Positions 8,963 to 31,741 of a DNA stretch of 32,221 bases are shown here, piece by piece; position 1 is the first letter of the stretch; each line of letters starts with the position of its first letter. The position numbers and the translations under genes were made by a program. Source of the DNA: a virus; the IMG/VR virus record IMGVR_UViG_3300025115_000038, positions 1 to 32,221 of that record. One strand, 5' to 3'. Below the pieces are notes generated by a model that did no database searches, was not told the origin of the DNA, and was given only the letters and a program-made list of their open reading frames with translations.

Positions 8963-9495
8963 GACATCCTCCCTTGCATAAAGTAATCCATAGGATTCAT
9001 TGTATACTGCTGATTATATTCAACTTGCTGTGGTTGCTGTTGGCCTAAAGCCAGAAGTTCCTGTATTTGGGCATCTAAATCAGGGCTTGTAGGCGCACCT
9101 GTTTCGCTAGGTGGAAACGCCTGTGAAAGCATAGACGTACCTTGACCACCAAGCGCAAGCGCACCTTTATTGTTAGCTAGGAAAGAACCTAATTTAGAAC
9201 CCCAAAAACCTGTCTTAGCCGCTGTATCTGCACCAGCACCAGCACCAGCAGCAGCCGCACCTGCACCTGCACCTGTAGCAGCAGTTGAACCAATATTTAC
9301 TCCAAAGGACAATGGTACAGTTTGGCCTATCATGCCAGATTTAAGAGCTAAACCACCTGTTCCAAGTCCTATTTTACCAGCACCTGCAATAGCAGGAGCC
9401 GTAGCAGCAGCCGCAGGAGCTAACGCACCTGCTGTAGCTGCGATTGCTGCAAGTCCTCCAACGACTCCGAGGGCTGTTCCGACTTTGCTTCCCAT
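8959..9495 (-). CDS. Candidate small ejection protein, Ala/Gly-rich hydrophobic (178 aa)
   Basis: The ATG at 9495 is preceded by AGGAGGAAGAA, a strong ribosome binding site, so the start is secure even though the first 76 bases lie inside the GNAT gene in another frame. The N-terminal 100 residues are almost all Ala, Gly and small hydrophobics (VGGLAAIAATAGALAPAAAA; TGAGAGAAAAGAGAGA), suited to membrane insertion. The C-terminus is polar and Gln-rich. The profile fits a small ejected protein that helps form a channel in the host envelope. The assignment is by composition and context. Confidence 0.55.
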   Translation of the reverse strand: MGSKVGTALGVVGGLAAIAATAGALAPAAAATAPAIAGAGKIGLGTGGLALKSGMIGQTVPLSFGVNIGSTAATGAGAGAAAAGAGAGADTAAKTGFWGSKLGSFLANNKGALALGGQGTSMLSQAFPPSETGAPTSPDLDAQIQELLALGQQQPQQVEYNQQYTMNPMDYFMQGRMS

Positions 9496-10022
9496 TTCTT
9501 CCTCCTCTGTTTATACAGAGAATTGTACTGTTCTTTAAACATCGTATAGTGTAACTCATCTAAATATCTGCCTTTGTAATATGCCTCTGATTTTAAGGTG
9601 GCTTCTTTTCTTAAACCGCCTTTAGTTAAGACCTCAATCGTTCTTGCGTCATTCTCTAGGCATACAAAGATAATCTTCCTTGCGTTGGCTGTGTTAAACA
9701 AATAATTGGCAAGTGTAATACAGGCATCTGGCGCAAATCCTTTATGCTGTTCCGTATCGTTTAACATCATGCCTATCTTATAACATCTGGACATAGGCTT
9801 ATAGTTATGAATCGTTATCATGCCGACAGGTAAGTTGCCGAACATAATAAGCATAACAGTACAGTCCATAGTTGCCGGATAATTACAAACCTCTGGATAT
9901 GATAGCGGCCTAGTTATATGCCTGAAGAATTTCTGATACTTGCCGCTGAAATACCAGTTAGCTATGTACGTCCCATATTCCTGCTGATACGGCATCAACG
10001 TAATTTGCTTGCCTTTAAACAT
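9420..10022 (-). CDS. GNAT-family acetyltransferase-like protein
   Basis: The 200-residue product has the layout of an Acetyltransf_3-type GNAT: an N-terminal strand and helix (ITLMPYQQEYGTYIANWY), a central region ending in HKGFAPDACITLANYLFN (comparable to the acetyl-CoA pyrophosphate loop and following helix), then KIIFVCLENDARTIEVLTKG and LRKEATLKSEAYYKGRYLDE. The glycine-rich RxxGxG loop is only partly kept. The C-terminal ~25 residues are polar and overlap the next gene. Related genes occur in other phages next to virion genes. The substrate is unknown. Confidence 0.7.
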   Translation of the reverse strand: MFKGKQITLMPYQQEYGTYIANWYFSGKYQKFFRHITRPLSYPEVCNYPATMDCTVMLIMFGNLPVGMITIHNYKPMSRCYKIGMMLNDTEQHKGFAPDACITLANYLFNTANARKIIFVCLENDARTIEVLTKGGLRKEATLKSEAYYKGRYLDELHYTMFKEQYNSLYKQRRKKWEAKSEQPSESLEDLQQSQLQQVR

Positions 10023-18419: not shown

Positions 18420-19104
18420 ACCAGTTCCTTACCACCTGTTCGTAAGTCATTGGATTGTTTCTGGATGTTTTACCTTCTTCGTCAGCCCATCGTATGCGGT
18501 CATCACCCTCAAGCCTAATCATATCAGAACGCTTAGCTTCAATCAGCATATTACGATATAGCTGATATTCAGATTGAAACCTGTCGTCTGTTTCTCTCTG
18601 TAAAGCAGCCGCAAACAGCCGTTGACCTAGAAGGTACTGATATTCAATCGGAATTGTCGTATATGAACCAGCCACAAGATAGGTGGGTTTTCTTTTATAT
18701 CTTATATTGAGAACTCCGTTTTCAGTTGGCGTAGGATAAAGATATATTTCGGTGTTGCCCCATCTTGCATATCTCAAAGCTGTACCTTTTGTTTCGGCAG
18801 CAGGGTCAGCTTGGTCGATAGTTCTGATTTCAGTTCTCGTAATTCTTACACCATTTACAGCGTCAACTATATCTTCTACGTCTATACAATCAACAGGAAG
18901 TGTAGCCGTAGCTACGTTGGCATTGTAGTTTACAACGCCTGTCGTATGAAGAAACGACCAATCGTGTGCATTACATATCTCGTTTTGCAAGAAGTTAGCA
19001 TTGTTCATAAGGTATGTAGCAAGCGCAGATGAATCGTTTCCAACTGCCAGTTGGACATCTTCAATCATTTCATCTATAGTCATGCCATAGATTTCACTTG
19101 GCAT
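18409..19104 (-). CDS. Head-tail adaptor (T7 gp11-like tail tubular protein A)
   Basis: The ATG at 19104 follows GGAG at seven bases. The 231-residue protein has an alpha-helical N-terminus (TIDEMIEDVQLAVG), the tract EICNAHDWSFLHTTGVVNYN, a beta insert, then WGNTEIYLYPTPTENGVLNI and two long C-terminal helices (LGQRLFAAALQRETDDRF...). This order is that of the gp11/gp4-type adaptors that form a 12-mer ring between portal and nozzle. Its position just before the nozzle gene supports the call. It overlaps the glycosyltransferase gene by 25 bases. Confidence 0.7.
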   Translation of the reverse strand: MPSEIYGMTIDEMIEDVQLAVGNDSSALATYLMNNANFLQNEICNAHDWSFLHTTGVVNYNANVATATLPVDCIDVEDIVDAVNGVRITRTEIRTIDQADPAAETKGTALRYARWGNTEIYLYPTPTENGVLNIRYKRKPTYLVAGSYTTIPIEYQYLLGQRLFAAALQRETDDRFQSEYQLYRNMLIEAKRSDMIRLEGDDRIRWADEEGKTSRNNPMTYEQVVRNWYAS

Positions 19105-20243
19105 ATAGATTCTCCTATCTCTTGTTCTGCTTCTTCTATATCTTTTAAATCTATTTTAAGGCCGTAAAGTTTTTCGTAGTTTTCAGCCCATATAGATATA
19201 TTGTTCTGAAGTGAATAATGCTTATCTACATTTGCAAAAGCCTCTTCCCCAATCTCTGTTCGTAAGTCTTTAGATTCTATTAAAGCCTTTAGATAATTAT
19301 ACCAAGTATCTAAAGTGTTCTTTGTCGCTACTCTATTATGTGCAAACATAGGTACTTTAAAGCCATCTATCCTGTGGGTAATTGTTTCTGAATATGGATA
19401 GACCTGTGAATATATTCCGGCTACTTTTAAAACAGACCATTCCAGATAGCGGCAATTAGACTTACATGCGTTGAACTTTAAATCTTCGAGAGGCACGACA
19501 GCTATATCGGCTTTGGTTGAACCTAAAAGACTATTCCATTCTTTAAAACTTGAACCTTCTATATATTCAAATCCCTTTTTCAACTTACGGGATTCACCTT
19601 TACCTTCATACATATAGTCGCATTTCATGCCAACGCTTACAAATCTTACCTGTTTATATTCAGCTAGTATGCGTTCAATAGCTGGCATTATCATCTTTAA
19701 ATCCTGATAATGAGAGGCTGAACCAGCCCATACAATTCTTATCGTATCTTCGTCATTTACAACTCTATGCCTAGCTAAATCCATATCTATAAGGTTAGGC
19801 ATGACGAAAGTAGGTTTGCCTAACTTATATCCAAAAGAACGCTTTAAAGGCATAGTAGAGAACTGCAAGGCATCTGATTCTTCCATCTGCATAGTTGCCG
19901 AAGCAAAAGGCTCTCCACCTACTTCCCAATGCTTAGATGCAATATTTAACTTATCTACGTTTTGAAAGTCATCGTCTGTTTCAAATACTAAAGGCACCTT
20001 ACATAAATGTCTTAACACCATAAGCATTTGAACGGACTTGATATTATCACAGCGCATCGAAACAATTAAGTCAGAACCTTTGCACTTCTCATAATAATAT
20101 TCTATCGAACCTTTAAGCTGTCTTTCCTTATCGAAGCAAATAACTTCAAAGTCTTTTAGCTTGTTAAGAAACTTGGCGGGTTGAAATACACGCCAATAAG
20201 CACAGCCATTCCATTCGGTATGAAGCATTGTTATCTTCGGCAT
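19080..20243 (-). CDS. GT-B glycosyltransferase-like protein (GT4-like)
   Basis: The 387-residue product has the two-domain GT-B layout. The N-terminal half includes YWRVFQPAKFLNKL and VPLVFETDDDFQNV. The C-terminal Rossmann half has TIRIVWAGSASHYQDLKM, then KADIAVVPLEDLKFNACKSN followed by CRYLEWSVLKVAG, the region that binds the nucleotide-sugar in GT4-type enzymes. Other phages and bacteria carry such genes in surface polysaccharide loci. Its location between capsid and tail adaptor genes is unusual. The start lies within the preceding small gene with no strong ribosome binding site, so translation is probably coupled. Confidence 0.78.
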   Translation of the reverse strand: MPKITMLHTEWNGCAYWRVFQPAKFLNKLKDFEVICFDKERQLKGSIEYYYEKCKGSDLIVSMRCDNIKSVQMLMVLRHLCKVPLVFETDDDFQNVDKLNIASKHWEVGGEPFASATMQMEESDALQFSTMPLKRSFGYKLGKPTFVMPNLIDMDLARHRVVNDEDTIRIVWAGSASHYQDLKMIMPAIERILAEYKQVRFVSVGMKCDYMYEGKGESRKLKKGFEYIEGSSFKEWNSLLGSTKADIAVVPLEDLKFNACKSNCRYLEWSVLKVAGIYSQVYPYSETITHRIDGFKVPMFAHNRVATKNTLDTWYNYLKALIESKDLRTEIGEEAFANVDKHYSLQNNISIWAENYEKLYGLKIDLKDIEEAEQEIGESICQVKSMA

Positions 20244-20491
20244 TTGCTGATATAGCCTTTGTTTTTTAAGATGTCGATAACGTCCATCCAGCCTCTAGCT
20301 TCTATGCCGCCGTCAGTTCTAAATCTTGTACGTTCAGGCATATCTATCAGAGGCAAAGCGCATATATATTCCTGATTCCAATTAAGACCTGCGCTTCCAT
20401 GTTCTCCATATTCAGGCTTGGCATCTTTCCAATTAATCCATAGCCCTTGATTCTCTTTACGGATTAGACGTTCCAATTCTCTTGCATACAT
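20231..20491 (-). CDS. Hypothetical protein, 86 aa
   Basis: I use ATG 20491, preceded by GAGGTGAAT; an in-frame GTG two codons upstream is less likely. The product begins MYARELERLIRKENQG and continues with a Trp-rich, mixed segment (GLWINWKDAKPEYGEHGS). There is no recognised domain. It is the first gene after the hairpin downstream of the capsid gene and overlaps the glycosyltransferase gene by 13 bases. A functional link with the glycosyltransferase is possible but not shown. Confidence 0.5.
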   Translation of the reverse strand: MYARELERLIRKENQGLWINWKDAKPEYGEHGSAGLNWNQEYICALPLIDMPERTRFRTDGGIEARGWMDVIDILKNKGYISKCRR

Positions 20492-20504
20492 ATTCACCTC
20501 TTAA

Positions 20505-20544
20505 ACTAGATTGCCTCCCCCCTTAATTGGGGGGAGGGTCTAGT
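20505..20544 (-). terminator. Strong hairpin after the major capsid gene
   Basis: The intergenic segment contains a 9-bp perfect GC-rich stem (CCTCCCCCC at 20514-20522 with GGGGGGAGG at 20529-20537) around a TTAATT loop. An outer 6-bp arm pair (ACTAGA 20505-20510, TCTAGT 20539-20544) extends it. No T run follows in the - strand transcript, so it may be an inefficient terminator or an mRNA-stabilising hairpin rather than a classical Rho-independent terminator. Its place right after the capsid gene fits a device that sets capsid above downstream gene expression. Confidence 0.6.
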
Positions 20545-20562
20545 GAGCGTTGGGGGAAAATC

Positions 20563-21522
20563 TTAGATGCCGGAGGCTGTACCAGAACGAATCTTGATAT
20601 GCCTGTCGGTATCGAAAGCACCTGCGCCGCCAAGATACTTGACCGCCCAAGTGACTTTAAAACCAACTGTCGAACGCTGGTCTAACGGGTCAGCCGTTCC
20701 TGCCGAACCAAGCGACTTGATGAAAGTCTTGAGGTTATGGCCGGAAAGCTCAATTACTGCGAAATCTTCGGCACCGAGAACCAAAGTATTATATACCTTA
20801 GCCCCACCAGAAGTACCTGAAGTCGTAGAACTCATGTTCTGCGATTCAATTACACGCACTCCGTATGCCTTGCCGATTTCGCCTTTGTAGGCTTCCTGTT
20901 TACCAACGTACTTATTGATGTCTATCCACGAACCAGTAGCGGTATCGTTCATGACATCGTAAGTAACCGCAGGGTGAGCGACAGCAACATAGTTACCATC
21001 GCTTCTTGAAGGTACAGCATTAGCCTTCATTACAGTCGCGGCTTTCAGAAGTTCTTTAGCCGTCAGCACATCAGAAGCACCAGTTGAGGAAAGAGCAGTT
21101 TTGCCGTTGGCGAACTGCTCTGCACCAGTTGCATCTAGCTCTGTGCGGATAACTGTATCTATCTTTTCAGCAGCATTGTACGATAGAATGTCTATCGCAG
21201 AATTGACAACAGGGTCTATAGCGGTTGTCTGGATGAGGTCGGACAGAATGGTATAGTTACCATACTGAACTATCTCAGCAGTCACGTTCACGCTAGAGAG
21301 TGCTGTGTCGGTTGGCGGTGTTCCTTCAACTAGAACCTGAGCATCAGAGACATTCATGTTGTTGTAGCGAAGGAAATAAACTACCTTACCATAACCTTTA
21401 GGAAGCGGTCTTTTCTCGCCAAGCTGATACAGACGGAGAGTATTCTCAAGTCTGGAAAGCAGCCTCTTATTGTAATAAGTCCAAAGGTTTGCGGTAAGGG
21501 TCGAGGTGGTATTGATAGCCAT
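20563..21522 (-). CDS. Major capsid protein (N4-gp56 family)
   Basis: The 319-residue protein matches the N4-gp56-type capsid pattern: MAINTTSTLTANLWTYYNKR, PKGYGKVVYFLRYNNM, then IVQYGNYTILSDLIQTTAID, AEKIDTVIRTEL and the C-terminal TVGFKVTWAVKYLGG. This is the HK97-fold shell protein. It follows the scaffold gene and has a GGAAAGG-type ribosome binding site. A strong hairpin is placed after it. Length is in the usual range (about 300-400 residues). High confidence from sequence pattern and gene order. Confidence 0.9.
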   Translation of the reverse strand: MAINTTSTLTANLWTYYNKRLLSRLENTLRLYQLGEKRPLPKGYGKVVYFLRYNNMNVSDAQVLVEGTPPTDTALSSVNVTAEIVQYGNYTILSDLIQTTAIDPVVNSAIDILSYNAAEKIDTVIRTELDATGAEQFANGKTALSSTGASDVLTAKELLKAATVMKANAVPSRSDGNYVAVAHPAVTYDVMNDTATGSWIDINKYVGKQEAYKGEIGKAYGVRVIESQNMSSTTSGTSGGAKVYNTLVLGAEDFAVIELSGHNLKTFIKSLGSAGTADPLDQRSTVGFKVTWAVKYLGGAGAFDTDRHIKIRSGTASGI

Positions 21523-21544
21523 GTCGAACCTTTCCGATTAAGTC

Positions 21545-22348
21545 CTAGACTGTTGCAGTTCTATCTTGGGCAATTCCAAGCGACTTCTCCATTTCCTCTA
21601 GGCTTAATTCCTTAAAATCTTTAGTTGAGGTTGTTTTGCCGGAGGATTCAGCGAAGGCTTTTCTTTTGCTCTGCTGTGCTTTTAACACCTCTTGCCTACC
21701 TTGTGCCTTAGCCGCAGATGCAATATCGCCTTTCTTCATCTCTCTGGCTTTGTAGTAGAGGAATTCCATATAAGCAGGGTCGTTTGGATTGTTAGGATTT
21801 ATGAGATGATTGAACTGACCTGAATTCCACAGTTCGCTCATAACAGGCTTTATATCATCGTAATCAGGATGATAGCTACGAAGATTCTGCTCTGCTCTCT
21901 CAATGGCAAGCATAGCTTGCTGTGCTTCAATCCTAGCCAATCTTTCTTCCGCTTGCTTAGCTGTTTCCTCAGCTACGTTCCTGACGGCTTCATATGGGTT
22001 CTTCTTGACAGCCTCATCGAAAAGCACATCAGGCGGCAAAGAATCGTCTTTCCGTCCCATCTGATTCAAGCGACCTTCCATCTGGGCGAAGCGTAAATCC
22101 TGTTCCTGCTTCAAGCGATTGGCATATATCCTCAAGTTTTCGTAAGAATTCTTGAGCTTGCCATAATCGCCCGCCCATTGGTCTTGCGGTTTGGCTTGTT
22201 CTTCTTGGACTTCCTGACCTTCTTCGCCTTCCCCTTCCGCTACTTCCCCTTGAGCTTCGGCATTTTCTTCAAGGCCAACCACTTCGTTTCCAAGTGATTC
22301 GCCTTCTTCCGACACCTGCTCATCAACGCCTTCACGAATTTCTTCCAT
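21545..22348 (-). CDS. Capsid scaffolding protein
   Basis: The 267-residue protein has an acidic low-complexity N-terminus (GEGEEGQEVQEEQAKPQDQ, residues 40-58), a long coiled-coil (ETAKQAEERLARIEAQQAML) and a C-terminal basic, Gln/Lys-rich helix (LKAQQSKRKAFAESSG). This layout is standard for phage scaffolding proteins that nucleate procapsid assembly and then leave. It sits between the portal and the capsid genes. It is not cleaved by any protease encoded in the window that I can see. Confidence 0.8.
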   Translation of the reverse strand: MEEIREGVDEQVSEEGESLGNEVVGLEENAEAQGEVAEGEGEEGQEVQEEQAKPQDQWAGDYGKLKNSYENLRIYANRLKQEQDLRFAQMEGRLNQMGRKDDSLPPDVLFDEAVKKNPYEAVRNVAEETAKQAEERLARIEAQQAMLAIERAEQNLRSYHPDYDDIKPVMSELWNSGQFNHLINPNNPNDPAYMEFLYYKAREMKKGDIASAAKAQGRQEVLKAQQSKRKAFAESSGKTTSTKDFKELSLEEMEKSLGIAQDRTATV

Positions 22349-22380
22349 CTGTTCCTCCTTGTGGAGCCTTTAGCGAGCCA

Positions 22381-22752
22381 CTATTGGTTGTCGCCTATAG
22401 GTTGTCCAATAAGTGTTTCTAGCTCGTTCTCAATTTCAACTAAAAGTTTGTCGGAATCTTCTGCTATAAGGAGTATGTTATCCAAATAGTAGATTAGTCC
22501 CCTCGTTGTTCTTATCTGCCCTTGGAGATACCTTATAGCTTCTATGCCTGACAGCTTCTCAGACTGGCTATAGTTTATGTCCGTAGGAGATGAGATTTTA
22601 TTGAGCAGACCTTTTTCCTCATCTTTCAGTTGTTCAAGAATAAGTTCTCGGTAATCCTTGTTTTTTAACAGCCGTTTTGCTTTTGTTGCCTTGTTCTGTC
22701 GTTCTAAAATTTCAGCCCTTTGCTCTTTTAATTCTTGAATTCTTTCTTCCAT
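22381..22752 (-). CDS. Hypothetical coiled-coil protein (123 aa)
   Basis: This gene abuts the portal gene without a gap. It encodes a helical, highly charged protein (MEERIQELKEQRAEILERQN) with a leucine-rich second half (GIEAIRYLQGQIRTTRGLIY; DKLLVEIENELETLIG). No motif is recognised. Small coiled-coil proteins in this position can act as portal or scaffold partners, which is inference. The start codon is 22752. Confidence 0.55.
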   Translation of the reverse strand: MEERIQELKEQRAEILERQNKATKAKRLLKNKDYRELILEQLKDEEKGLLNKISSPTDINYSQSEKLSGIEAIRYLQGQIRTTRGLIYYLDNILLIAEDSDKLLVEIENELETLIGQPIGDNQ

Positions 22753-24636
22753 TTATCCCCCTAGCTGCATCATAAGTTCTTCTTCTGGACTTATATTTGA
22801 AACTGCGTCCATAACCCCGCCCATATCCATACCCTGCATACCACCTTGCTGCTGCATCATCTGTTGTTCTTGCATCTGTTGTTCTTGCATCTGTTGCTGC
22901 TGCTGTTGTTGCTGTTGCTGTCCCATAAGCTGTTGATATACTTGTTCGTTGAAATACTTATCTACGTTTCTAAATCCGAATTCTTTAAGGAAATCACCCA
23001 AGAGGTTATTCACATGAAACATCATTGGATATTGCTGTATGAAAGGCATGAGCGTTTGAAAGACCATAGCTAGGTTAGCCTGTCTTTCCTCTTTCATAAC
23101 CTTATCAGCTACAGCTATACGCCTATAATCATACTCTCTTTCAAAGGCATCTACAGGTAACTGTGCAAAAGAAAACGGCTTGTTAGTTACCCGAACAACT
23201 TGGTCGTCGGTTACGAACTCACGATTGTAACTTACGATAAGCGTTATAAGTGGTTTAAGAACATAGGCTTCCTGAAGTTTTATCTTGGAAGCTATTCTAT
23301 CAGACGTAAATTTCTGTAGATAATTCACACCTGTAGCGGTTCTTGTAAAAGCCTTGCCTAAGTTTTGTGTAGATTGACCTGCGTTTATATTGGCAGTTGT
23401 ATTCTGTATATCGAACTCCACCTGCCCTAACTCTTTATACGAAGAATTTACGACCTCTGGAGGCGGCAACTCTCTTATGCCGTTTATATCGTTTGCCCAT
23501 ATAATCCCGCCTGGCTTTGAATAAATAGACCTTTGGTTGATACCAGCAGTTCTATCAACGATATACATGCGATTGAGAGCCATATTAGCTTGGTCTAATC
23601 TGGCGTTTCTCATCGTTGTACCTTCGTGGATAAGCGATTCAATCATTTCGATTTCGCCTATCCCATAGAACTCGCTTGGCACACGATAGTCGATACCTGC
23701 CACAAAAGGCTTTAGCTGGCCTGGCATCGGGTTCTTTTCACAACGTATAACTATGCAATCGTTGGCTATTGTTATGACGTAAGGTTCAGGGGCTTCTCCT
23801 GCCTTTTCGGCAAACATCCCCCACCATTCAACCAGCTTTACCTTTTCAAGTCCTTTAGATGTGCTGTCTTGGTCTAACGCTTCTTTCTTTAGATGGTCAT
23901 ATTCGCTTTCACCTGCATCTGTCTGAACGTCGCCATCTACATCGGCTATGCTGTTATAAAGTTCCTCAAGGTTTATATATATACCTTCTTCGCCTTTTCT
24001 TTCGTTTGCCTTTAAATCCCAATAGCTCTTGGTCATTCTATGAGCGCAATCAAAATCTTGGACATTTGGAGAAGTTGCTCTCCAATCAGGGAAGAAGTCC
24101 GTAATAGCAATATGTTGAAAGTCGATATTGTCATAATAGACTTCTACTTCCTCGGCATCCTGCATAGTTTCTACGCCGATAGTTTCGTCAAACACAGGGC
24201 GTTTTCTTTTAACAATACGTTCTTTTGTTATCCAGGGAACTTTAGCTACAGCAGTACCAGTTTTAAGAAGTGTATCTACAAAGTCCGAATACTTTTCATA
24301 TAAGCCAACTTCATCTAGCTGTTGGTCGATATAATCAGACATGATTTCAGCGGATTCTGTATCTTCGGCCTGCCTGCCAGCTAGCTGGAGATATGGCCTT
24401 TCGTTGAAGATAGCTTCCATAATCATAGGCTTCATGGTTTCTATCTGCTGAAAGGCGTAAGGCGGCTTTAAATTAGCCCTTTGATGTACAGGTATGTTTT
24501 CGTATTTATGCTGCTTCGCCATGTAAAGGTCGTTAAAACGTGCGAACTTGTCAAAGTATGGCTGACAGAACGACTCTGCGTTCTTCATCCACCAATCTAC
24601 ATGGGCTTTAGCTCTAGCTATTTTAGCTTCATTCAT
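22753..24636 (-). CDS. Portal protein
   Basis: The 627-residue protein has features of short-tailed phage portals: PPYAFQQIETMKPMIMEA and YSDFVDTLLKTGTAVAKVPW in the first third, VPSEFYGIGEIEMIESLIHE and the helical stretch GTTMRNARLDQANMALNRMY in the middle. It follows the large terminase gene and precedes scaffold and capsid genes, the usual order. The C-terminus carries an unusual Gln tract and then a Met/Gly-rich tail. It would form the 12-subunit DNA entry ring at one capsid vertex and bind the terminase. Confidence 0.85.
   Translation of the reverse strand: MNEAKIARAKAHVDWWMKNAESFCQPYFDKFARFNDLYMAKQHKYENIPVHQRANLKPPYAFQQIETMKPMIMEAIFNERPYLQLAGRQAEDTESAEIMSDYIDQQLDEVGLYEKYSDFVDTLLKTGTAVAKVPWITKERIVKRKRPVFDETIGVETMQDAEEVEVYYDNIDFQHIAITDFFPDWRATSPNVQDFDCAHRMTKSYWDLKANERKGEEGIYINLEELYNSIADVDGDVQTDAGESEYDHLKKEALDQDSTSKGLEKVKLVEWWGMFAEKAGEAPEPYVITIANDCIVIRCEKNPMPGQLKPFVAGIDYRVPSEFYGIGEIEMIESLIHEGTTMRNARLDQANMALNRMYIVDRTAGINQRSIYSKPGGIIWANDINGIRELPPPEVVNSSYKELGQVEFDIQNTTANINAGQSTQNLGKAFTRTATGVNYLQKFTSDRIASKIKLQEAYVLKPLITLIVSYNREFVTDDQVVRVTNKPFSFAQLPVDAFEREYDYRRIAVADKVMKEERQANLAMVFQTLMPFIQQYPMMFHVNNLLGDFLKEFGFRNVDKYFNEQVYQQLMGQQQQQQQQQQMQEQQMQEQQMMQQQGGMQGMDMGGVMDAVSNISPEEELMMQLGG
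22846..22922 (-). repeat. Poly-Gln coding simple repeat in the portal C-terminus
   Basis: The portal gene here contains CAG/CAA-type codons giving ten Gln in a row, then three short MQEQQ-like repeats; a 15-bp unit (ctgttgttcttgcat on the + strand) is directly repeated. The tract occupies about 25 residues near the C-terminus. The copy number could vary by slippage. Confidence 0.7.
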
Positions 24637-24645
24637 GGCAAATCC

Positions 24646-27069
24646 TTATGACAACTCAAGGAAACCTGTGTATGGATTGATTTTCATTTCATCTTCCATC
24701 GACATTTCCTTGCGTTCATCTTGGGTTCCTAAAAGTCTGGCCTGTTCCCAAGCAAGCGCATAAGACATAACTAAATCATCATGGCCGCCAGACTGTGCGT
24801 TATATGAACCTGTTTCTTCTCTGATATATATCGTAGCTTCCTGCATAAATCTTACGCTGTTAGACATAGTTTGGCCGTCACGAAGCGCAGACTTTAGGTT
24901 ATTAATAACAGTTATCTTTGAATCTTTGGTCGTATGAAAACCGACTTTCTTGGTAGGAAGCGAAGTTCTTTCATCTATGCTTCTACGTTTATAGATGTTG
25001 CCATATAGCTTAACGAGAACCATAAGAACTGCATGGCCTATACTGTTGACTTCGCAGCAGATATGCGCCGAATTATACCATTTGCCGACACGATATAGAA
25101 ACCTTGCGAACAAATCAGGCTCTAGTTGAAACTGTGCTTCAGATACAACTCTGCCTGTTTTGCATTTAATTACAGTTACGCCACCGAAGTCTTTACCGAT
25201 ACCTTCAGACGGGTCGGCTCCTATGGCATATACTTCACCTGCCTGTGGCTTTTCCCAAACCCAAAAGTCGCTTAAATCGTCATCTTCCGATTTTATATTC
25301 AACCCATCTTCAGAAAGTGAAATTTTAAAAGAAGGGTCGCATTTACTTTTATTTAAACGATTTAGTATTCCTTGTGTAAATACCTGATTGCGGCCAGATA
25401 GAAAACAACTGATTTCATCTGTCGGATATAGGCGATTGAATTCTTCTTCATCGCCGTTCATATCTTCTATCTTCCATCTACGCCACATTAAATGCTGGTC
25501 ATTTAAATTAAAAGCTGTGCGTATTTCTTCTTCCTTTGCGCCCCAATTTATATCGTCTGGGACATCTACACGATGCTCTGGATAATGGTCAAACCAAGGG
25601 AAAAAGTGTCGTCTATATGTTCCCTTGCTTCTTAACGCCTGTTGATATTGGAGGTAATAATATCCACCCATGCCGTTAGGCGTAGTTTCCATTATTATTC
25701 TTCCAGTATCAGGGATAGATTCAGTTGATTCAGTTATACGTTGTTCTTCTATAAAGGCGGCTTCTGAGATATGTAGATACTTTAAGGTATATCCTTTGAA
25801 GTCGTAAGCCACCTTAACTGCGCTATCCCTATCGTGCCATACAAGTTCGTTCTGGTTATTGAGGTCTGTCTGAAGTGGAATTAAGAAACTCCAATCCTTT
25901 AAGAACAGGCGATAAGTTCTACGCACCATCGCAAAGATTTCTTTAACTCTTTCACGTTTGTCGGCCATAATTCCACAATGGGAACCCGACTCAAACACAG
26001 CTTTATCAAACGCTTCGATACAAGCAAATGAAGTATTGTGAGAAACAAATCCTTCTGCTATATATGTCCCTTCGCTTGTCTGAAGGTCAATCATTTCTTG
26101 TTCGCCAATATATTCAATAGAAATTACTTTTGACCAACCAGTTCCAGATTTTTTCCCAGGCAACTCCCTACCTTCCCAAAATTTATTATTTACAAAACGA
26201 GTAGGTCTGGTTTTTCCTATTAACTTAAAAAGTTCATCCATCCTTCCAAAACAAATTTTAGGTACGGGAATTTTTCCAAACTTTGATTTTCGTAAACTAT
26301 TATCTGCTTCTATTCTATAATTGTATTTGTTATCTATTACATATTTCAACATCCTATTCCAAACATTTCCGGGTCTTTGCGAAACAACTAAATTTGCAGA
26401 AGCAGACTTTTTACTTATTGAACCTTCTCCATCTAATATTCCAGAAAACCAACCATCATCAAATGTAGGCTTATCCCAAGGTTTTGTAATATGTCTTATA
26501 TATGTACCGACTTTAATTTCGCCAACAGTTCTATGTGTTTTTTTAATAGAACGCCAACTGCAAAAAGATGAACTTCCTTGCTTTGTAAGCCAAGGATGAA
26601 AATCGGTACAAATAAGTTCTCTGCCATCATCTAGTTTTATTTTAAATGCTTTTCTTTTAAGCCTAACAACTGCCTCAACAAAACCAGACTTCATTTTTCT
26701 TGATTTGCCCCTGCCTTTAGGTGGATGTTCATCAACGGAAATAATTTCTTCACCTACATTTAAGTCTTTGATTTTTATCCATCTTAAATCTGCCGTAAGA
26801 ATTTTTGTTTCTGGCGAAACGCAAAATCCAATTTGGCGGCTTTTCAAAATTAAATCTCTGTTGCTTTTGTTACGCCAGAATTGAAGCTGTCCAGAATTAG
26901 GAACAAAGTTGACAATAGCTCCATCTTTGTTCTTAATTTTATACAGATTCCTTAATCGTTCTTCGGCACCTAACTGTTGGCAGGTTTTATAAAAAGATGC
27001 TTTGGCATCTTCCAGAGGCATGGTTTTTACTTTATCTATTATCTGCTGAAACCTTTTAGTATAAGCCAT
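24646..27069 (-). CDS. Terminase large subunit interrupted by an intein
   Basis: The mature protein is the DNA-packaging motor: ATPase plus headful nuclease. The precursor has 807 residues; 263 form an intein (residues 83-345), leaving 544. ATPase elements: Walker A KSRQIGF|TS split by the intein (76-82, 346-347), Walker B with catalytic Glu (YLHISEAAF, Glu436), coupling motif TTPNG (462-466). Nuclease acids: Asp619 in GADPSEG, Glu673 in CEVNSIG, Asp764/765 in GGHDDLVMSYA. The gene overlaps the reductase gene by 14 bases and precedes the portal by nine bases. Without the intein the length is normal for a large terminase. Confidence 0.92.
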   Translation of the reverse strand: MAYTKRFQQIIDKVKTMPLEDAKASFYKTCQQLGAEERLRNLYKIKNKDGAIVNFVPNSGQLQFWRNKSNRDLILKSRQIGFCVSPETKILTADLRWIKIKDLNVGEEIISVDEHPPKGRGKSRKMKSGFVEAVVRLKRKAFKIKLDDGRELICTDFHPWLTKQGSSSFCSWRSIKKTHRTVGEIKVGTYIRHITKPWDKPTFDDGWFSGILDGEGSISKKSASANLVVSQRPGNVWNRMLKYVIDNKYNYRIEADNSLRKSKFGKIPVPKICFGRMDELFKLIGKTRPTRFVNNKFWEGRELPGKKSGTGWSKVISIEYIGEQEMIDLQTSEGTYIAEGFVSHNTSFACIEAFDKAVFESGSHCGIMADKRERVKEIFAMVRRTYRLFLKDWSFLIPLQTDLNNQNELVWHDRDSAVKVAYDFKGYTLKYLHISEAAFIEEQRITESTESIPDTGRIIMETTPNGMGGYYYLQYQQALRSKGTYRRHFFPWFDHYPEHRVDVPDDINWGAKEEEIRTAFNLNDQHLMWRRWKIEDMNGDEEEFNRLYPTDEISCFLSGRNQVFTQGILNRLNKSKCDPSFKISLSEDGLNIKSEDDDLSDFWVWEKPQAGEVYAIGADPSEGIGKDFGGVTVIKCKTGRVVSEAQFQLEPDLFARFLYRVGKWYNSAHICCEVNSIGHAVLMVLVKLYGNIYKRRSIDERTSLPTKKVGFHTTKDSKITVINNLKSALRDGQTMSNSVRFMQEATIYIREETGSYNAQSGGHDDLVMSYALAWEQARLLGTQDERKEMSMEDEMKINPYTGFLELS
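26035..26823 (-). mobile_element. Intein with LAGLIDADG motif in terminase Walker A
   Basis: The boundaries are read from splice motifs. The first residue Cys83 opens block A (CVSPETKILTADLRWIKIKD), and block B has CTDFHPWLT with the Thr155-xx-His158 pair. A LAGLIDADG-like motif GWFSGILDGEGSI is at 206-218. The C-terminal blocks end SIEYIGEQEMIDLQ... and FVSHN, with His344-Asn345. The next residue is Thr346, a valid C-extein nucleophile. Length 263 residues is short for an intein with a full homing endonuclease; only one LAGLIDADG motif is clear, so the nuclease may be reduced. It interrupts the ATP-binding loop, a favoured insertion site because the loop is invariant. Confidence 0.93.
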
Positions 27070-27889
27070 TTAGGTAATGGTCTAAAGCCTTATCTATATG
27101 CCACATTTCATCTATGCCACATAGCTTTAGATTAGAGTTAGATAACGCCGAATATGCCGGACGTTTAATTACAGATTCTTTACTTTCACATGGATTAACA
27201 ATTACATTTTTAACGCCTGCTTTTTCTAAAATCTTCTTTGTGAATTCATACCAGCTTACAATTCCATAGTTTGTCATATGAAACAGACCTGAATAATCGC
27301 CTTTCAAAACTCTATCCAGTTGTCTTACGAAATTATATGTATAAGTAGGCGTTACATATTGGTCGTCTACGACAGTTAGAATTCCGTTTTTAGAATTGTT
27401 AAGCATCATCTGCGGGAAGTTATATTCTTTCGCTCTGCATTTATATTTCCCAAATACCGCAGATATTCTGGCTATGATATAGTTATCGCAATTAGCCTGT
27501 ACGAAATATTCACCTGCAAGTTTTGTGTTGCCATATACTTGCATAGGCATAGGCATATCTGGTTCTTCGTAAGGTCTATTTGTATTTCCGCTGAAAACAT
27601 AATCGGTAGATATATGAACTAATTTAGCCTTTACTTCTTGTGCCGCCATCGCAAGGTTTTTCGCACCGATAGCATTTACTTTATATGCCACATCAGGGTT
27701 TAGTTCGCATTTATCCAAGTTATGGTATGCCGCACAATTAAAGATAACTGTAGGTTTCAAGGCTTTTATGGCTTCAATGATTTCAGGCGATTCGACTTCT
27801 ATATGTCCGTGATTAAGACCTATAGACTTTGGATAATACGCATGAAGCTCGCTACCTAATTGCCCATTAGCTCCGATTATCAGATACAT
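27056..27889 (-). CDS. dTDP-4-dehydrorhamnose reductase-like (RmlD-like)
   Basis: The 277-residue SDR-family protein starts with the nucleotide-binding loop IIGANGQLGS (Gly6, Gly9, Gly12). It contains VIFNCAAY (48-55), HISTDYVFSG (92-101) with Thr95-Asp96-Tyr97, and YGNTKLAGEYF (119-129) with the catalytic Tyr119 and Lys123. RmlD makes dTDP-L-rhamnose from the 4-keto sugar using NAD(P)H. The match is good at family level. Its 3' end overlaps the terminase start by 14 bases, so the two are translated together. No RmlA or RmlB gene is seen in the window. Confidence 0.85.
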   Translation of the reverse strand: MYLIIGANGQLGSELHAYYPKSIGLNHGHIEVESPEIIEAIKALKPTVIFNCAAYHNLDKCELNPDVAYKVNAIGAKNLAMAAQEVKAKLVHISTDYVFSGNTNRPYEEPDMPMPMQVYGNTKLAGEYFVQANCDNYIIARISAVFGKYKCRAKEYNFPQMMLNNSKNGILTVVDDQYVTPTYTYNFVRQLDRVLKGDYSGLFHMTNYGIVSWYEFTKKILEKAGVKNVIVNPCESKESVIKRPAYSALSNSNLKLCGIDEMWHIDKALDHYLNGLY

Positions 27890-28908
27890 TCATGCGCCCG
27901 TTTCTCCGAACCTAAAATCTCGGCGGCCATATCCAGACACTTCATCCAGTTGATATTGTAGTATAACGGGTTATCCCAATCGGTTTTAGAATTTGCCAAA
28001 ACTTCTATAAGCATATTTTCAATTGATTGCTCTAAGGTAACTTTAGGATTAAATCCCAACCGCCTGAACTTCTCCGAAGTCACCCGATAATTGCGTATGC
28101 CTGACTTAGAAGAACTCAACTTGAAGTGGCATTTATAACCATGCTTACGCAACACACTTTCAACCATAATTGCGATTTCAGATATGCGTATATTGAAAGA
28201 CGTTACGTTATATATTCCTTGAATATTGTCTAAATCACAGGCTAATTTATATGCCTGTACAGCATCTTCGATAGCAAGCATCGGTCGCCATATCTGACCG
28301 CAGTTATGTAGATTTAAAAACCCATCTCTCAAACCTGACTTCAGAAATGTATTAACAACCAAGTCATATCTCATTCTATCTGAATAACCGAACACAGTCC
28401 CTTTACGAAGCGCAACACATTTAAACGAATCATCATTTAAACTAAACAGCCTTTCCTCTGCTTTTAATTTAGACAAAGCATAGGCAGCTTGAGGGTTGAC
28501 CATAGCAGATTCATCGAGCACAGTATCACTTCGTTCATCGTCAAGCCCTCTATCATAAATTGAGCAAGAGGATGCAAGGATGTATTTTCTGACCCCATAT
28601 TTCTTACCATCTTCTGCAATTTTATATGTAGCATTGACATTCATCTCCATATTGGCTTCAGGAGAATATTCAGCCGTAGGGTCGTTTGACAATCCGCCGA
28701 CATTGATAATAGTTCTTACATCGTCAAAGACATAGCTTGGGACAGACCTCATATCAGCCCTGACTATATCTACCTTATCTTTAACATCATCTAAAGCATT
28801 GAATCCAAAGTAGCCTCTATCTAAAACCTTTACTCTTTTACCGCAAGCTACGAATTCTTTTACTATCTGGCTACCTATATATCCTGCCCCGCCAACCACC
28901 AATATCAT
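27880..28908 (-). CDS. NAD-dependent sugar epimerase/dehydratase
   Basis: The 342-residue protein has the extended SDR layout: LVVGGAGYIGSQI (3-15), ILASSCSIYDRG (110-121) with Ser113/114, and YALSKLKAEERL (143-154) with Tyr143 and Lys147. NVGGLSNDPTAEYSP (69-83) lies between. Likely substrates are UDP- or dTDP-sugars, for epimerisation or dehydration; specificity cannot be read. It overlaps both neighbours (10 and 4 bases), consistent with one operon. Confidence 0.85.
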   Translation of the reverse strand: MILVVGGAGYIGSQIVKEFVACGKRVKVLDRGYFGFNALDDVKDKVDIVRADMRSVPSYVFDDVRTIINVGGLSNDPTAEYSPEANMEMNVNATYKIAEDGKKYGVRKYILASSCSIYDRGLDDERSDTVLDESAMVNPQAAYALSKLKAEERLFSLNDDSFKCVALRKGTVFGYSDRMRYDLVVNTFLKSGLRDGFLNLHNCGQIWRPMLAIEDAVQAYKLACDLDNIQGIYNVTSFNIRISEIAIMVESVLRKHGYKCHFKLSSSKSGIRNYRVTSEKFRRLGFNPKVTLEQSIENMLIEVLANSKTDWDNPLYYNINWMKCLDMAAEILGSEKRAHECI

Positions 28909-29780
28909 AATTGTTCCTTTGCTATATTCTCAACTACTTCAAGAATACGCCTTCTTGAATGACCTGGATATTCTACCAAAACTTCAGATGCTTTCTTTCT
29001 AATATCAGCTAATGGGTCATTTCCATTTCGTAACATTTGAACATATCTTTTAACATCATCCCAACTTTCAGCCTGATAATATGCGTTTCTAAATCTCCAT
29101 TCTAAAGAATTTGGTAAGAATAAATTAGAATATCTATAGCATCCAAGTTCAAATACAATTACAGGTCTGTTAAGCATTACAGCTTCTAACGCACATGAAG
29201 CATAATCACAGACAGTAATTGCATTTTCAGCTATTCCAGTACAGGCAAATCCATCATATGAATTCTTAAACATATCCATTACAACAGGGAATCGGCTATT
29301 TAACATTGGATGAACTTTAAAAGTAGTTTCACCTAAATCATATATACGAGGGCCAATATACCAAAGGGAACAAAGTTCATGATTATGAGTTGGACAATAG
29401 AATACGCCGTTCTTATTTATTATAGGAACATAATATGCCATGTCCATATATGGAACACCGACTATATGAGCTTGGCAGCCATTATTTGTTAGAAAATCAG
29501 CTACAAGTTTATTTGGTACAAGATTTATATTTCTACGTTCTTTTTCGTGCATATCATGAATATCAGCTTTACACCAATGCCAGCCTTTATTGCCTATACC
29601 ATGATTTACATCGAAACATATTTTTGCGTTTCTTCTAGTGCCTGAACTTGCATAAATACCTACATCAGCTTCTTTATCCAAATCAAATGTAGTTTCATAT
29701 CCATGAGCAGAAAAATAACTTGCTATGAACTCAAGTCCTTTATTCTGTTCTTCAAAATCGCCTTGAAATTGAACAATCAT
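28905..29780 (-). CDS. CDP-glycerol transferase-like GT-B protein
   Basis: The 291-residue product resembles the CDP-glycerol glycerophosphotransferase (TagB/TagF) group: an N-terminal domain with FDVNHGIGNKGWHW, and C-terminal CDYASCALEAVMLNRPVIVF, comparable to the DYSS...rPvifF nucleotide-binding segment of these GT-B enzymes. It is shorter than the bacterial enzymes. The reaction may be transfer of glycerol-phosphate or another activated alcohol to a glycan. Substrate is uncertain. It overlaps its neighbours by four bases each. Confidence 0.65.
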   Translation of the reverse strand: MIVQFQGDFEEQNKGLEFIASYFSAHGYETTFDLDKEADVGIYASSGTRRNAKICFDVNHGIGNKGWHWCKADIHDMHEKERRNINLVPNKLVADFLTNNGCQAHIVGVPYMDMAYYVPIINKNGVFYCPTHNHELCSLWYIGPRIYDLGETTFKVHPMLNSRFPVVMDMFKNSYDGFACTGIAENAITVCDYASCALEAVMLNRPVIVFELGCYRYSNLFLPNSLEWRFRNAYYQAESWDDVKRYVQMLRNGNDPLADIRKKASEVLVEYPGHSRRRILEVVENIAKEQL

Positions 29781-30244
29781 TTAACAACCTTCCCTAACAT
29801 ACAGAAGTCGTGGTAATATTGAATTTTCATATGAGGCAGTTGTATTTCATGTAGCTCGCTATATAGAAACTTATCTAACTTGATATGGCCTTTAGATAAA
29901 TCAAACCAGCTAGCTTTGAATTCAGTTGTTATTTGTTCCCATTGTTTTTCAGACCATATGAATTTATGTCCGTAACACATCGCCATAGGATTCGTCCAAT
30001 GCGGAGTCCAAACTTCAACCTCAGCATTTGGCTTTCCAATTCTCACGATTTCATTAACGAGATGTTTTAAATTGTTGATATGTTCGAAACAATGAGAGGA
30101 AAAGATTTTATCAACTGAATTATCGTCAAACGGAAGTTTATCTGAATTGAAGTTACAAACAATATCGCCAGGTCTGAACTGAATTAAATCTACGTTGATA
30201 TATCCTGAACGTGGATATTGACCGCCACCTAAATCAACTTTCAT
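29777..30244 (-). CDS. Class I SAM-dependent methyltransferase
   Basis: I start at the ATG at 30244, which has GGGAG upstream and coincides with the beginning of the domain; a frame from 30280 adds 12 residues without ribosome binding site. The 155-residue protein begins MKVDLGGGQYPRSGYINVDL (motif I, SAM binding), then DDNSVDKIFSSHCFEHINNL (motifs II-III). It is short but complete for a small Methyltransf_11-type domain. In a sugar operon it may methylate a sugar hydroxyl, but the target is unknown. It overlaps the preceding gene by 11 bases. Confidence 0.75.
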   Translation of the reverse strand: MKVDLGGGQYPRSGYINVDLIQFRPGDIVCNFNSDKLPFDDNSVDKIFSSHCFEHINNLKHLVNEIVRIGKPNAEVEVWTPHWTNPMAMCYGHKFIWSEKQWEQITTEFKASWFDLSKGHIKLDKFLYSELHEIQLPHMKIQYYHDFCMLGKVVK

Positions 30245-30440
30245 TTCGCTCCCATGACAAAACATTCCAACTTCTCTCATGCAGGTAATATAGAACCATA
30301 CCTGTTATATTACCGACGATGCCAATAACTGCGCCTTTAGAAAAAGAACCTGTAAGGGCATAGGCAACTAGAATACCATTGGTAGTAGCTATCAATCTCC
30401 ACGAACAGCTTTTTACAAACGACCTTAGCTTAGAGTCCAT
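30234..30440 (-). CDS. DUF2061-like small membrane protein
   Basis: The 68-residue product has two hydrophobic segments (LIATTNGILVAYALTG; GIVGNITGMVLYYLHER) and ends YYLHERSWNVLSWERNES. The SWR...HER-W pattern is the signature of DUF2061, a small inner-membrane family often found near sulfur or sugar-nucleotide genes. No biochemical role is known. Its stop overlaps the methyltransferase start by 11 bases, and its start overlaps the next upstream gene by 11. Confidence 0.7.
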   Translation of the reverse strand: MDSKLRSFVKSCSWRLIATTNGILVAYALTGSFSKGAVIGIVGNITGMVLYYLHERSWNVLSWERNES

Positions 30441-30627
30441 TATCGTAAATCACCAGAGCAGAGTAGAGAATATCGCCTTGTTTATAATTAGCTGTCTGAA
30501 ACTTTATATCTATCAACTTAAATTCAGGACAATCGGCTTTAAGTCCAGACAAGAATTCAGATAAAGCATCTTTAAAAACTTTGGCGTTTAATTCAGATAT
30601 AAGTTCAATTCTAATCATTTTAATCAT
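30430..30627 (-). CDS. Small protein resembling Cse60 (65 aa)
   Basis: The ATG overlaps the cupin stop (ATGA at 30624-30627). The 65-residue product has the short alpha-beta pattern of the Cse60 family: an N-terminal strand (MIRIELIS), a helix (DALSEFLSGLKA), then KLIDIKFQTANYKQGD and a final strand SALVIYDNG. Cse60-like genes occur in phages and in bacteria that do not sporulate, so the sporulation name does not apply here. Function unknown. Confidence 0.55.
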   Translation of the reverse strand: MIKMIRIELISELNAKVFKDALSEFLSGLKADCPEFKLIDIKFQTANYKQGDILYSALVIYDNGL

Positions 30628-31052
30628 TTAAAAACGATTTCCCAACTGACGTTAAATGAATTAGGAGGAACTCTTTCTTCATCTGGACATTCTTTGTTGT
30701 AACAATGAGAAGCAACTGAATTCAAAATCGTGTTGTCCTCTAACGCCATCCAGCCATGCCAATAACCTGGAGGAACTGTCAGAACTTCAGGTGTGTTGCC
30801 ATCTAAAACAAATATATTGATTTCTTCCCCACTCTTATCGACTGTTATGAACTTAGCCGAACCAGATACAATCGTGAACCAATCCCACAACTCCCGATGC
30901 CTATGAAACGCCCGTATCGTACCTGCCTTGCGTGTCTTGACGATATATTGCTGTCCAAACTTATGTAAATCGTAAGCATGTATGACTTCGTACAATATTC
31001 CCCTGTCGTCTTTATTTACCTCTAACTTCGTTACCCCTAGCTCGTTTAACAT
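30624..31052 (-). CDS. RmlC-like cupin, sugar 3,5-epimerase family
   Basis: The 142-residue protein has the cupin pattern of dTDP-4-dehydrorhamnose 3,5-epimerases: DDRGILYEV (15-23), QQYIVKTRKAGTIRAFHRHR (34-53), and VPPGYWHGWMAL with the second conserved His. The last portion, CPDEERVPPN, is seen in relatives of this family. It could epimerise a keto-sugar produced by a host dehydratase and feed the RmlD-like reductase further along the operon. It is short compared with RmlC (about 180 residues), so the assignment is to the family, not the exact enzyme. Confidence 0.75.
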   Translation of the reverse strand: MLNELGVTKLEVNKDDRGILYEVIHAYDLHKFGQQYIVKTRKAGTIRAFHRHRELWDWFTIVSGSAKFITVDKSGEEINIFVLDGNTPEVLTVPPGYWHGWMALEDNTILNSVASHCYNKECPDEERVPPNSFNVSWEIVFK

Positions 31053-31233
31053 CTGCCCCCCTTAGTTTATGAAACGAAATGGAAACTGTCTTTACAAATC
31101 CCTTAATATCTCTGTCAAATACTTCGGTTATCTGTATGCCTATCGGATAATCGTCGTACTTAGCTATCTGCTTATGGATATATGCAACTACATCTTCCAA
31201 CGCCATAAACCTCTGAGAGATATTATATGTCAT
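31012..31233 (-). CDS. Hypothetical protein, 73 aa
   Basis: A small protein overlapping the small terminase by 11 bases and the cupin gene by 41. It begins MTYNISQRFMALEDVVAYIH and has a helix followed by a beta stretch (IGIQITEVFDRDIKGFVKTV) and a basic C-terminus (KRARGNEVRGK). There is no clear ribosome binding site for the first ATG. An in-frame ATG at 31206 has AGAGG only three bases away, also poor. No family recognised. Confidence 0.45.
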   Translation of the reverse strand: MTYNISQRFMALEDVVAYIHKQIAKYDDYPIGIQITEVFDRDIKGFVKTVSISFHKLRGADVKRARGNEVRGK

Positions 31234-31741
31234 CTTTCACATCTATATCTGCTTCCCCATCAACTGCGGCCTCTAACAAGGGGGTTTCCTTTTCTTCCCC
31301 CTCCAACTCCCCGTCATCACCTTCTATCGTCACATCCGCCTCTATCTGCGGTGCCTCATGTACTGGGAAACTTACTACCTTCTCCTGCTTGCTCTCACTC
31401 TTCTTCGGTGCCTCCAACCCCATCATGTTTATCGCCTGCTGATAATACTTGTACGCCTCCTTGTCATCCGCTCCCCTCGCCCTTACCATTACCTCGTCAC
31501 CTATATCCGCCCCATACTTCTCCAAAAACTTCAAACGAAACAACTCCACCATGTCTCGTATGTCCCTACGCTTTAATAAATTGTTCACCAATGTGTTCCT
31601 CATGTATGTCGGTGTCAATCCACTTCCTCCCCATGCTACCCTCGTACTCCATGAACCATTCCCCGTTATAGCATACTCCTTGCAAAATATCTGCTCCCGT
31701 ATCGTCAACCCCTTAGCATCTACTCGCTTCTTCCTCGCCAT
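31223..31741 (-). CDS. Terminase small subunit
   Basis: The 172-residue protein opens with MARKKRVDAKGLTIREQIFC and continues KEYAITGNGSWSTRVAWG, the helix-turn-helix pattern of Terminase_2 small subunits, followed by YMRNTLVNNLLKRRDIRDMV and YKYYQQAINMMGLEAPKK. The C-terminus is acidic and low complexity (GDDGELEGEEKETP). Small terminases bind the packaging site as an oligomer and load the large subunit. It is the first gene of the late - strand operon and is separated from the large subunit by about 4.1 kb of other genes. Confidence 0.82.
   Translation of the reverse strand: MARKKRVDAKGLTIREQIFCKEYAITGNGSWSTRVAWGGSGLTPTYMRNTLVNNLLKRRDIRDMVELFRLKFLEKYGADIGDEVMVRARGADDKEAYKYYQQAINMMGLEAPKKSESKQEKVVSFPVHEAPQIEADVTIEGDDGELEGEEKETPLLEAAVDGEADIDVKDDI

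Follow-up and report, generated by a model that had tools for sequence, protein, structure and literature searches.

Why would a phage keep a set of sugar-nucleotide genes inside its DNA-packaging operon, and what would it build with them? This question is raised by a stretch of viral DNA of 32,221 nucleotides (positions 1 to 32,221 of IMG/VR record IMGVR_UViG_3300025115_000038; hereafter the window), in which eight open reading frames (ORFs) on the minus strand, at 27056-31233, fill the space between the genes for the small and large terminase subunits (TerS and TerL; Table 1). A preliminary description of this DNA had proposed a sugar-nucleotide/glycan cassette of eight overlapping genes at this place, and all eight are present on that strand. 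The answer that we favour, giving it a somewhat better than even chance, is that the phage, one of a group of uncultured tailed phages, captured a bacterial sugar-nucleotide module and, while virions are being produced, uses it to synthesise a modified sugar, most likely for decoration of the virion itself.

Reading from TerS to TerL along the minus strand, the cassette consists of a 73-residue protein (u73), a cupin, a Spore_Cse60-like protein, a DUF2061 protein, a methyltransferase, a transferase, an extended short-chain dehydrogenase/reductase (SDR) and an RmlD-like reductase; u73 and the Spore_Cse60-like protein had not been named previously. No junction in the series is without overlap, and the overlaps are, in the same direction, 11, 41, 4, 11, 47, 4, 4, 10 and 14 bases. 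The range of 4 to 41 bases given in the preliminary description is correct if the methyltransferase begins instead with an ATG at 30244; this alternative start is preceded by a GGAG and reduces the 47-base overlap to 11. A scan of the minus strand inside the cassette revealed no convincing terminator, the number of sites being about that in shuffled sequence. The overlaps and the missing terminator together suggest that the cassette is co-expressed with the packaging motor.

Terminase genes had been said to be normally adjacent, and in more distant phages this junction is indeed closed. Bacillus phage Pony (Pagevirus) resembles the window in the order of its head genes, and its major capsid protein (MCP) is homologous (34% identical); nothing separates its TerS and TerL genes, which share 17 bases. 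Neither Pony terminase gene matches that of the window by tblastn, and the Pony annotation shows no glycosyltransferase behind the MCP. L033 and L036, whose TerL is distantly related, likewise have a small gene, probably TerS, that overlaps TerL directly. Judged by gene order, the cassette is an insertion relative to these phages. Among the literature results consulted, none dealt with genes inserted between terminase subunits; phage-borne glycan genes are already known, and the new variation here is that overlapping genes for sugar stereochemistry form a conserved operon at the TerS-TerL junction. Separately, we observed by eye that QueE-like and QueF/FolE-like (queuosine/archaeosine precursor) genes lie upstream of the terminase pair in L033 and L036, which suggests deazaguanine DNA modification in those distant relatives.

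To follow the cassette in closer viruses, we used related records from IMG/VR, of which L002 and L003 come from the same virus as the window or from a nearly identical one. Records with identical scores or from the same contig were counted as one virus (L004/L005; L028/L029; L006/L020/L024/L031/L048), and complete cassettes were present in two independent relatives only, L005 and L006. In both, the order is TerS, u73, cupin, DUF2061, methyltransferase, transferase, a nucleotidyltransferase, a pyruvate-kinase-barrel-like protein, SDR, RmlD and TerL, with an additional 119-residue ORF after DUF2061 in L005. The downstream end of the cassette is also seen in L029 (SDR-RmlD-TerL) and L030 (RmlD-TerL). 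Compared with the window, the cupin is 69-73% identical, the SDR and RmlD-like proteins are 57-63% identical and TerL, outside its intein, is 78-80% identical. The ratio of nonsynonymous to synonymous substitution rates (dN/dS) for SDR and RmlD was about 0.04-0.14 (dN 0.12-0.34 and dS about 2.3-2.8 in the L006/L029 and window/L006 comparisons, with dS near saturation), and both genes are under strongly purifying selection. Furthermore, all four junctions shared by the window and L006 from DUF2061 to TerL have identical overlap lengths (47, 4, 10 and 14 bases), and when trees were built for the core genes one by one, this phage group came out every time as a single clade, with a Shimodaira-Hasegawa-like approximate likelihood ratio support (SH-aLRT) of 100. 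Because the same order recurs in diverged relatives, a chance arrangement is excluded; the genes persist there as an ordered cassette and not as an unlinked, degraded island, as expected of a functional unit. The relatives also helped to identify TerS, which matches PHROG 51 in the window (9.7e-5), L005 (1.2e-7) and L006 and reaches Pfam Terminase_2 only below threshold, so that an identity that is weak from the window alone becomes firmer.

Against this conserved frame, some of the content varies. The window has neither the nucleotidyltransferase nor the barrel gene of L005 and L006. Its transferase is only 27-29% identical to its counterparts and has an outlying third-position GC content (GC3) of 0.18, and this slot looks exchanged. 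A tblastn search of the phage collection with the transferase found no record. The transferase had been described as resembling cytidine diphosphate (CDP)-glycerol transferases; its own score against PF04464 (12.7) is below the gathering threshold of 22.1, whereas its L005 homologue passes (24.2). For the nucleotidyltransferase of L005 and L006, the best match is to HldE domain II, the heptose-1-phosphate domain (TIGR02199, 1.8e-35), with scores of 121.8 and 111.7 that lie below the trusted cut-off of 181.5; this match hints at a heptose. The adjoining Glyphos_transf match led us to consider a TagD-like CDP-polyol enzyme as well, and this remained a secondary reading with 59-60 bits, compared with 112-122 for HldE domain II. 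The barrel protein that follows (175-179 residues; L005 5026-5553, L006 4849-5388) resembles part of the pyruvate kinase barrel and lies between this gene and the SDR. In addition, the Spore_Cse60-like protein (PF10957, 22.9 against a cut-off of 20.7) shifts its location, lying inside the cassette in the window (30430-30627) and upstream of TerS in L006 (1435-1626). This protein may hint at a Gram-positive host.

What the core enzymes do is predicted from homology. The RmlD-like reductase, the NAD-dependent epimerase, the methyltransferase and the DUF2061 protein of the preliminary description were all recovered by family models. The first scored above the NCBIfam RmlD equivalog cut-off (TIGR01214, 244.8 against 224.05) and retains the STDY and YxxxK motifs, with RmlD as its best PDB neighbour, the second is the SDR (PF01370, 97 bits), and the last two scored 36.7 against Methyltransf_11 and 68.1 against DUF2061. 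The SDR retains the Ser-Tyr-Lys set (S114, Y143 and K147), and its best match in the PDB is 6vo6, a 'sugar-nucleotide epimerase/dehydratase' (E 9e-16), with which it has an RMR-DL-VN stretch in common. We take 6vo6 to be Cj1427, which oxidises C4 of guanosine diphosphate (GDP)-heptose. The 'RmlC-like cupin' is a cupin; however, it is not RmlC proper (21.8 against TIGR01221, far under the cut-off of 155.75) and belongs to the WbuC / CapF type that accompanies the SDR and RmlD in bacteria, passing TIGR04366 WbuC (44 against 42) and PF14667 (48.9 against 28.7). Its best PDB neighbours are RmlC/Cap5F, histidines 50, 52 and 99 are conserved, and the histidine that aligns with the RmlC base is kept.

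From these assignments, a three-step route can be proposed. First, the SDR would oxidise C4 of a host-supplied nucleoside diphosphate (NDP)-sugar, possibly an NDP-heptose. Second, the cupin would act as an epimerase on C3 and/or C5 of the resulting 4-keto sugar. Third, the RmlD-like reductase would reduce C4, after which the methyltransferase may cap the sugar. The model for this route is the GDP-D-glycero-heptose pathway of Campylobacter jejuni, with its C4-dehydrogenase Cj1427, C3/C5-epimerase Cj1430 and C4-reductase Cj1428. There, C4 oxidation, C3/C5 epimerisation and C4 reduction are carried out by three such enzyme classes (PMC10680097; PMC7949155). The predicted phage route matches it in SDR oxidation, cupin epimerisation and SDR reduction, and differs in that the phage reductase is of the RmlD type, the cupin is WbuC/CapF-like and heptose-supply genes were not found in the window.

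To reveal the origin of the module, we examined 80 prokaryotic loci (79 bacterial and one archaeal) retrieved by SDR homology only. An RmlD homologue lies immediately downstream of the SDR in 60 of the 76 loci with sequence there, and a cupin directly precedes it in 27 of 77; in 21 loci the SDR has both neighbours. The neighbours in those 21 loci include family-2 and family-4 glycosyltransferases, Wzt-type exporters, methyltransferases and the O-antigen ligase family, and by this gene context polysaccharide-export loci contain cupin-SDR-RmlD as a recurring unit. We found no characterised example of the trio. In Acidobacteriota, Chloroflexota, Planctomycetota and others, the order is the same as in the phage and the proteins are similar (SDR 39-49%, cupin mostly 44-51%, RmlD about 28-43% identical); unlike the bacterial unit, the phage version has genes between cupin and SDR, a terminase-flanked site and a clade of its own. 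Among 50,697 phage records the cupin was undetected by tblastn and SDR identity was 31% at most, and a DNA-level search of the phage collection gave no match. The phages most likely took the trio as a set from bacteria. The 178-kb viral contig L026 carries the trio too, along with a glycosyltransferase that falls into the same PHROG as a second such enzyme in the window. In L026 and the 62-kb L027 (5323-12452), the genes are cupin, methyltransferases, a 251-residue protein, SDR, RmlD and glycosyltransferase; by eye, they adjoin ribonucleotide-reductase-like and DNA polymerase III alpha (DnaE)-like genes, and the reductase ORF seems to contain a long intein-like insert.

The second glycosyltransferase of the window bears on where the sugar goes. 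It lies one small gene downstream of the MCP gene and is kept in all close relatives with sequence at that spot. Its model is weak (55.3), and Foldseek matches are GT-B/GT4-like with a template modelling (TM) score near 0.2, which is mild support only; a PDB profile search with it gave nothing useful. In the distant relative MW202801.1 (L018), a homologous glycosyltransferase also follows the MCP, and a different glycan cassette lies directly upstream of it (19640-24303; Fe-S oxidoreductase, glycosyltransferase, PhyH, methyltransferase, NodB-like and glycosyltransferase). With a glycosyltransferase fixed among the head genes and a sugar module among the packaging genes, virion decoration is favoured over the host surface. 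Attachment would be by the cassette transferase and/or the MCP-adjacent glycosyltransferase, most likely onto capsid or tail proteins. A fuller scheme, which we offer tentatively and would not expect to hold in every part, is that the trio makes a rare, possibly heptose-derived sugar and is translated with the packaging motor, that the dedicated MCP-adjacent glycosyltransferase directs it to the head, and that the exchangeable transferase slot varies the glycan between phages.

Several observations weigh against virion decoration by such a route. The window record looks like a fragment, and no replication genes were recognised in it. The window yielded neither a sugar nucleotidyltransferase nor a dehydratase, which leaves the host as the source of the substrate. 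The sequence of the SDR also allows a plain 4-epimerase. The cupin scores far under the RmlC model, and the RmlC dyad aspartate has no clear equivalent in it. The cassette transferase is barely detectable as such; its structure model has a mean predicted local distance difference test score (pLDDT) of 38.6, and a PDB profile search with it gave nothing useful. Finally, the DUF2061 protein, predicted to be a membrane protein and conserved within the cassette, points to the cell envelope, and the relatives of the trio make surface polysaccharide.

These last two points belong equally to the strongest alternative, namely that infection leads to addition of the sugar to the surface of the host cell, where a changed receptor would keep other phages from superinfecting or released progeny from sticking to debris. 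The L005/L006 transferase weakly matches TIGR04396 'surface carbohydrate biosynthesis', and O-antigen-modifying temperate phages such as Kapi1 are known (PMC8787464). However, we recognised neither a GtrA/GtrB-like flippase nor an acyltransferase or integrase, the location in the packaging operon implies a stage when a surface change helps less, and a glycosyltransferase is fixed beside the capsid gene. We regard this alternative as possible but rather doubtful. It is less probable still that the cassette completes an ordinary deoxythymidine diphosphate (dTDP)-L-rhamnose-like pathway from the host RmlA/RmlB product, with the SDR as a side branch. The equivalog-level RmlD and the weak RmlC similarity of the cupin fit such a pathway; however, the cupin falls far short of RmlC, the SDR is under the RmlB dehydratase cut-off (55.3 against 365.1) and no other gene accompanies RmlD as constantly as the SDR in the prokaryotic loci. 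Family scans found neither RmlA nor RmlB in the window cassette.

A third explanation, that phage DNA is modified with the sugar to evade host restriction, would account for the position in the packaging operon beside the terminase, and viruses are known to encode glycosyltransferases for DNA hypermodification (Pyle et al. 2024, as cited in PMC12619734). We consider it improbable: the relatives of the trio are in polysaccharide loci, and the scanned proteins of the window, whose record is incomplete, included none recognisable as a hydroxymethylase, a TET/JBP oxygenase or another enzyme of base modification. That the cassette is neutral cargo landed by chance between the terminase genes, as its variable content (the missing nucleotidyltransferase and barrel genes, the Spore_Cse60-like gene found in the window cassette only and the highly diverged transferase) might suggest, is very hard to credit given an order and overlaps kept over large divergence under strongly purifying selection.

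Virion decoration, the explanation that we prefer, has precedents in part. In mycobacteriophages, glycans occur on capsid and tail proteins (Freeman et al. 2023, as cited in PMC12619734 and PMC12691614), and a phage glycosyltransferase is proposed here for the same role; unlike in those phages, a sugar-nucleotide module would also be brought by the phage, and glycosylation is a prediction. Sugar-nucleotide genes such as galE, rmlB, rmlD and others are likewise carried by phages as O-antigen nucleotide-sugar auxiliary genes (PMC12911398), whereas here they form a fixed operon at the terminase junction, with an order conserved across related phages.

Table 1. Positions in the window of the cassette genes, their terminase borders and the head genes discussed
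Feature	Coordinates	Strand	Remarks
Terminase small subunit (TerS), upstream border	31223..31741	-	PHROG 51; kept in L005 and L006
73-residue protein (u73)	31012..31233	-	Same place in L005 (44%) and L006 (37%)
Cupin, WbuC / CapF C-terminal type, predicted 3- and/or 5-epimerase	30624..31052	-	TIGR04366, PF14667; histidines 50, 52, 99
Spore_Cse60-like small protein	30430..30627	-	PF10957; not in L005/L006 cassettes
DUF2061 small membrane protein	30234..30440	-	PF09834 8.9e-19; kept in L005 and L006
S-adenosylmethionine (SAM)-dependent methyltransferase, start possibly 30244	29777..30280	-	PF08241 6.9e-9
Transferase, distant CDP-glycerol glycerophosphotransferase likeness, variable cassette member	28905..29780	-	PF04464 sub-threshold in window
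Extended SDR, predicted sugar-nucleotide C4-oxidoreductase	27880..28908	-	PF01370 1.5e-27; best PDB match 6vo6
RmlD-like reductase, predicted C4-reductase	27056..27889	-	TIGR01214; PDB 1vl0 5.6e-47
Terminase large subunit (TerL), downstream border, with intein	24646..27069	-	PHROG 2, Terminase_6C
Second glycosyltransferase, outside cassette, proposed partner	19080..20243	-	PHROG 7162 3.2e-26
Major capsid protein (MCP), possible glycan acceptor	20563..21522	-	PHROG 1357 6.2e-57

Two further features of the window were noted. The TerL intein comprises about 263 residues (83-345; 26035-26823, minus strand) with an endonuclease-like GILDGEGS stretch, and it interrupts the SRQIGF/T ATPase motif. 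It is missing from the close relatives L004-L006, L028 and L030. In addition, a GNAT acetyltransferase (PF13302) is encoded at 9420-10022, downstream of the tail-fibre genes.

Few phages have been shown to have glycosylated particles. If virion decoration by this cassette is true, the glycosylation of the virion, its chemistry and its role towards receptors and defences become directly testable, and the same work would give a function to a trio of genes that recurs in the polysaccharide-export loci of many bacterial phyla.

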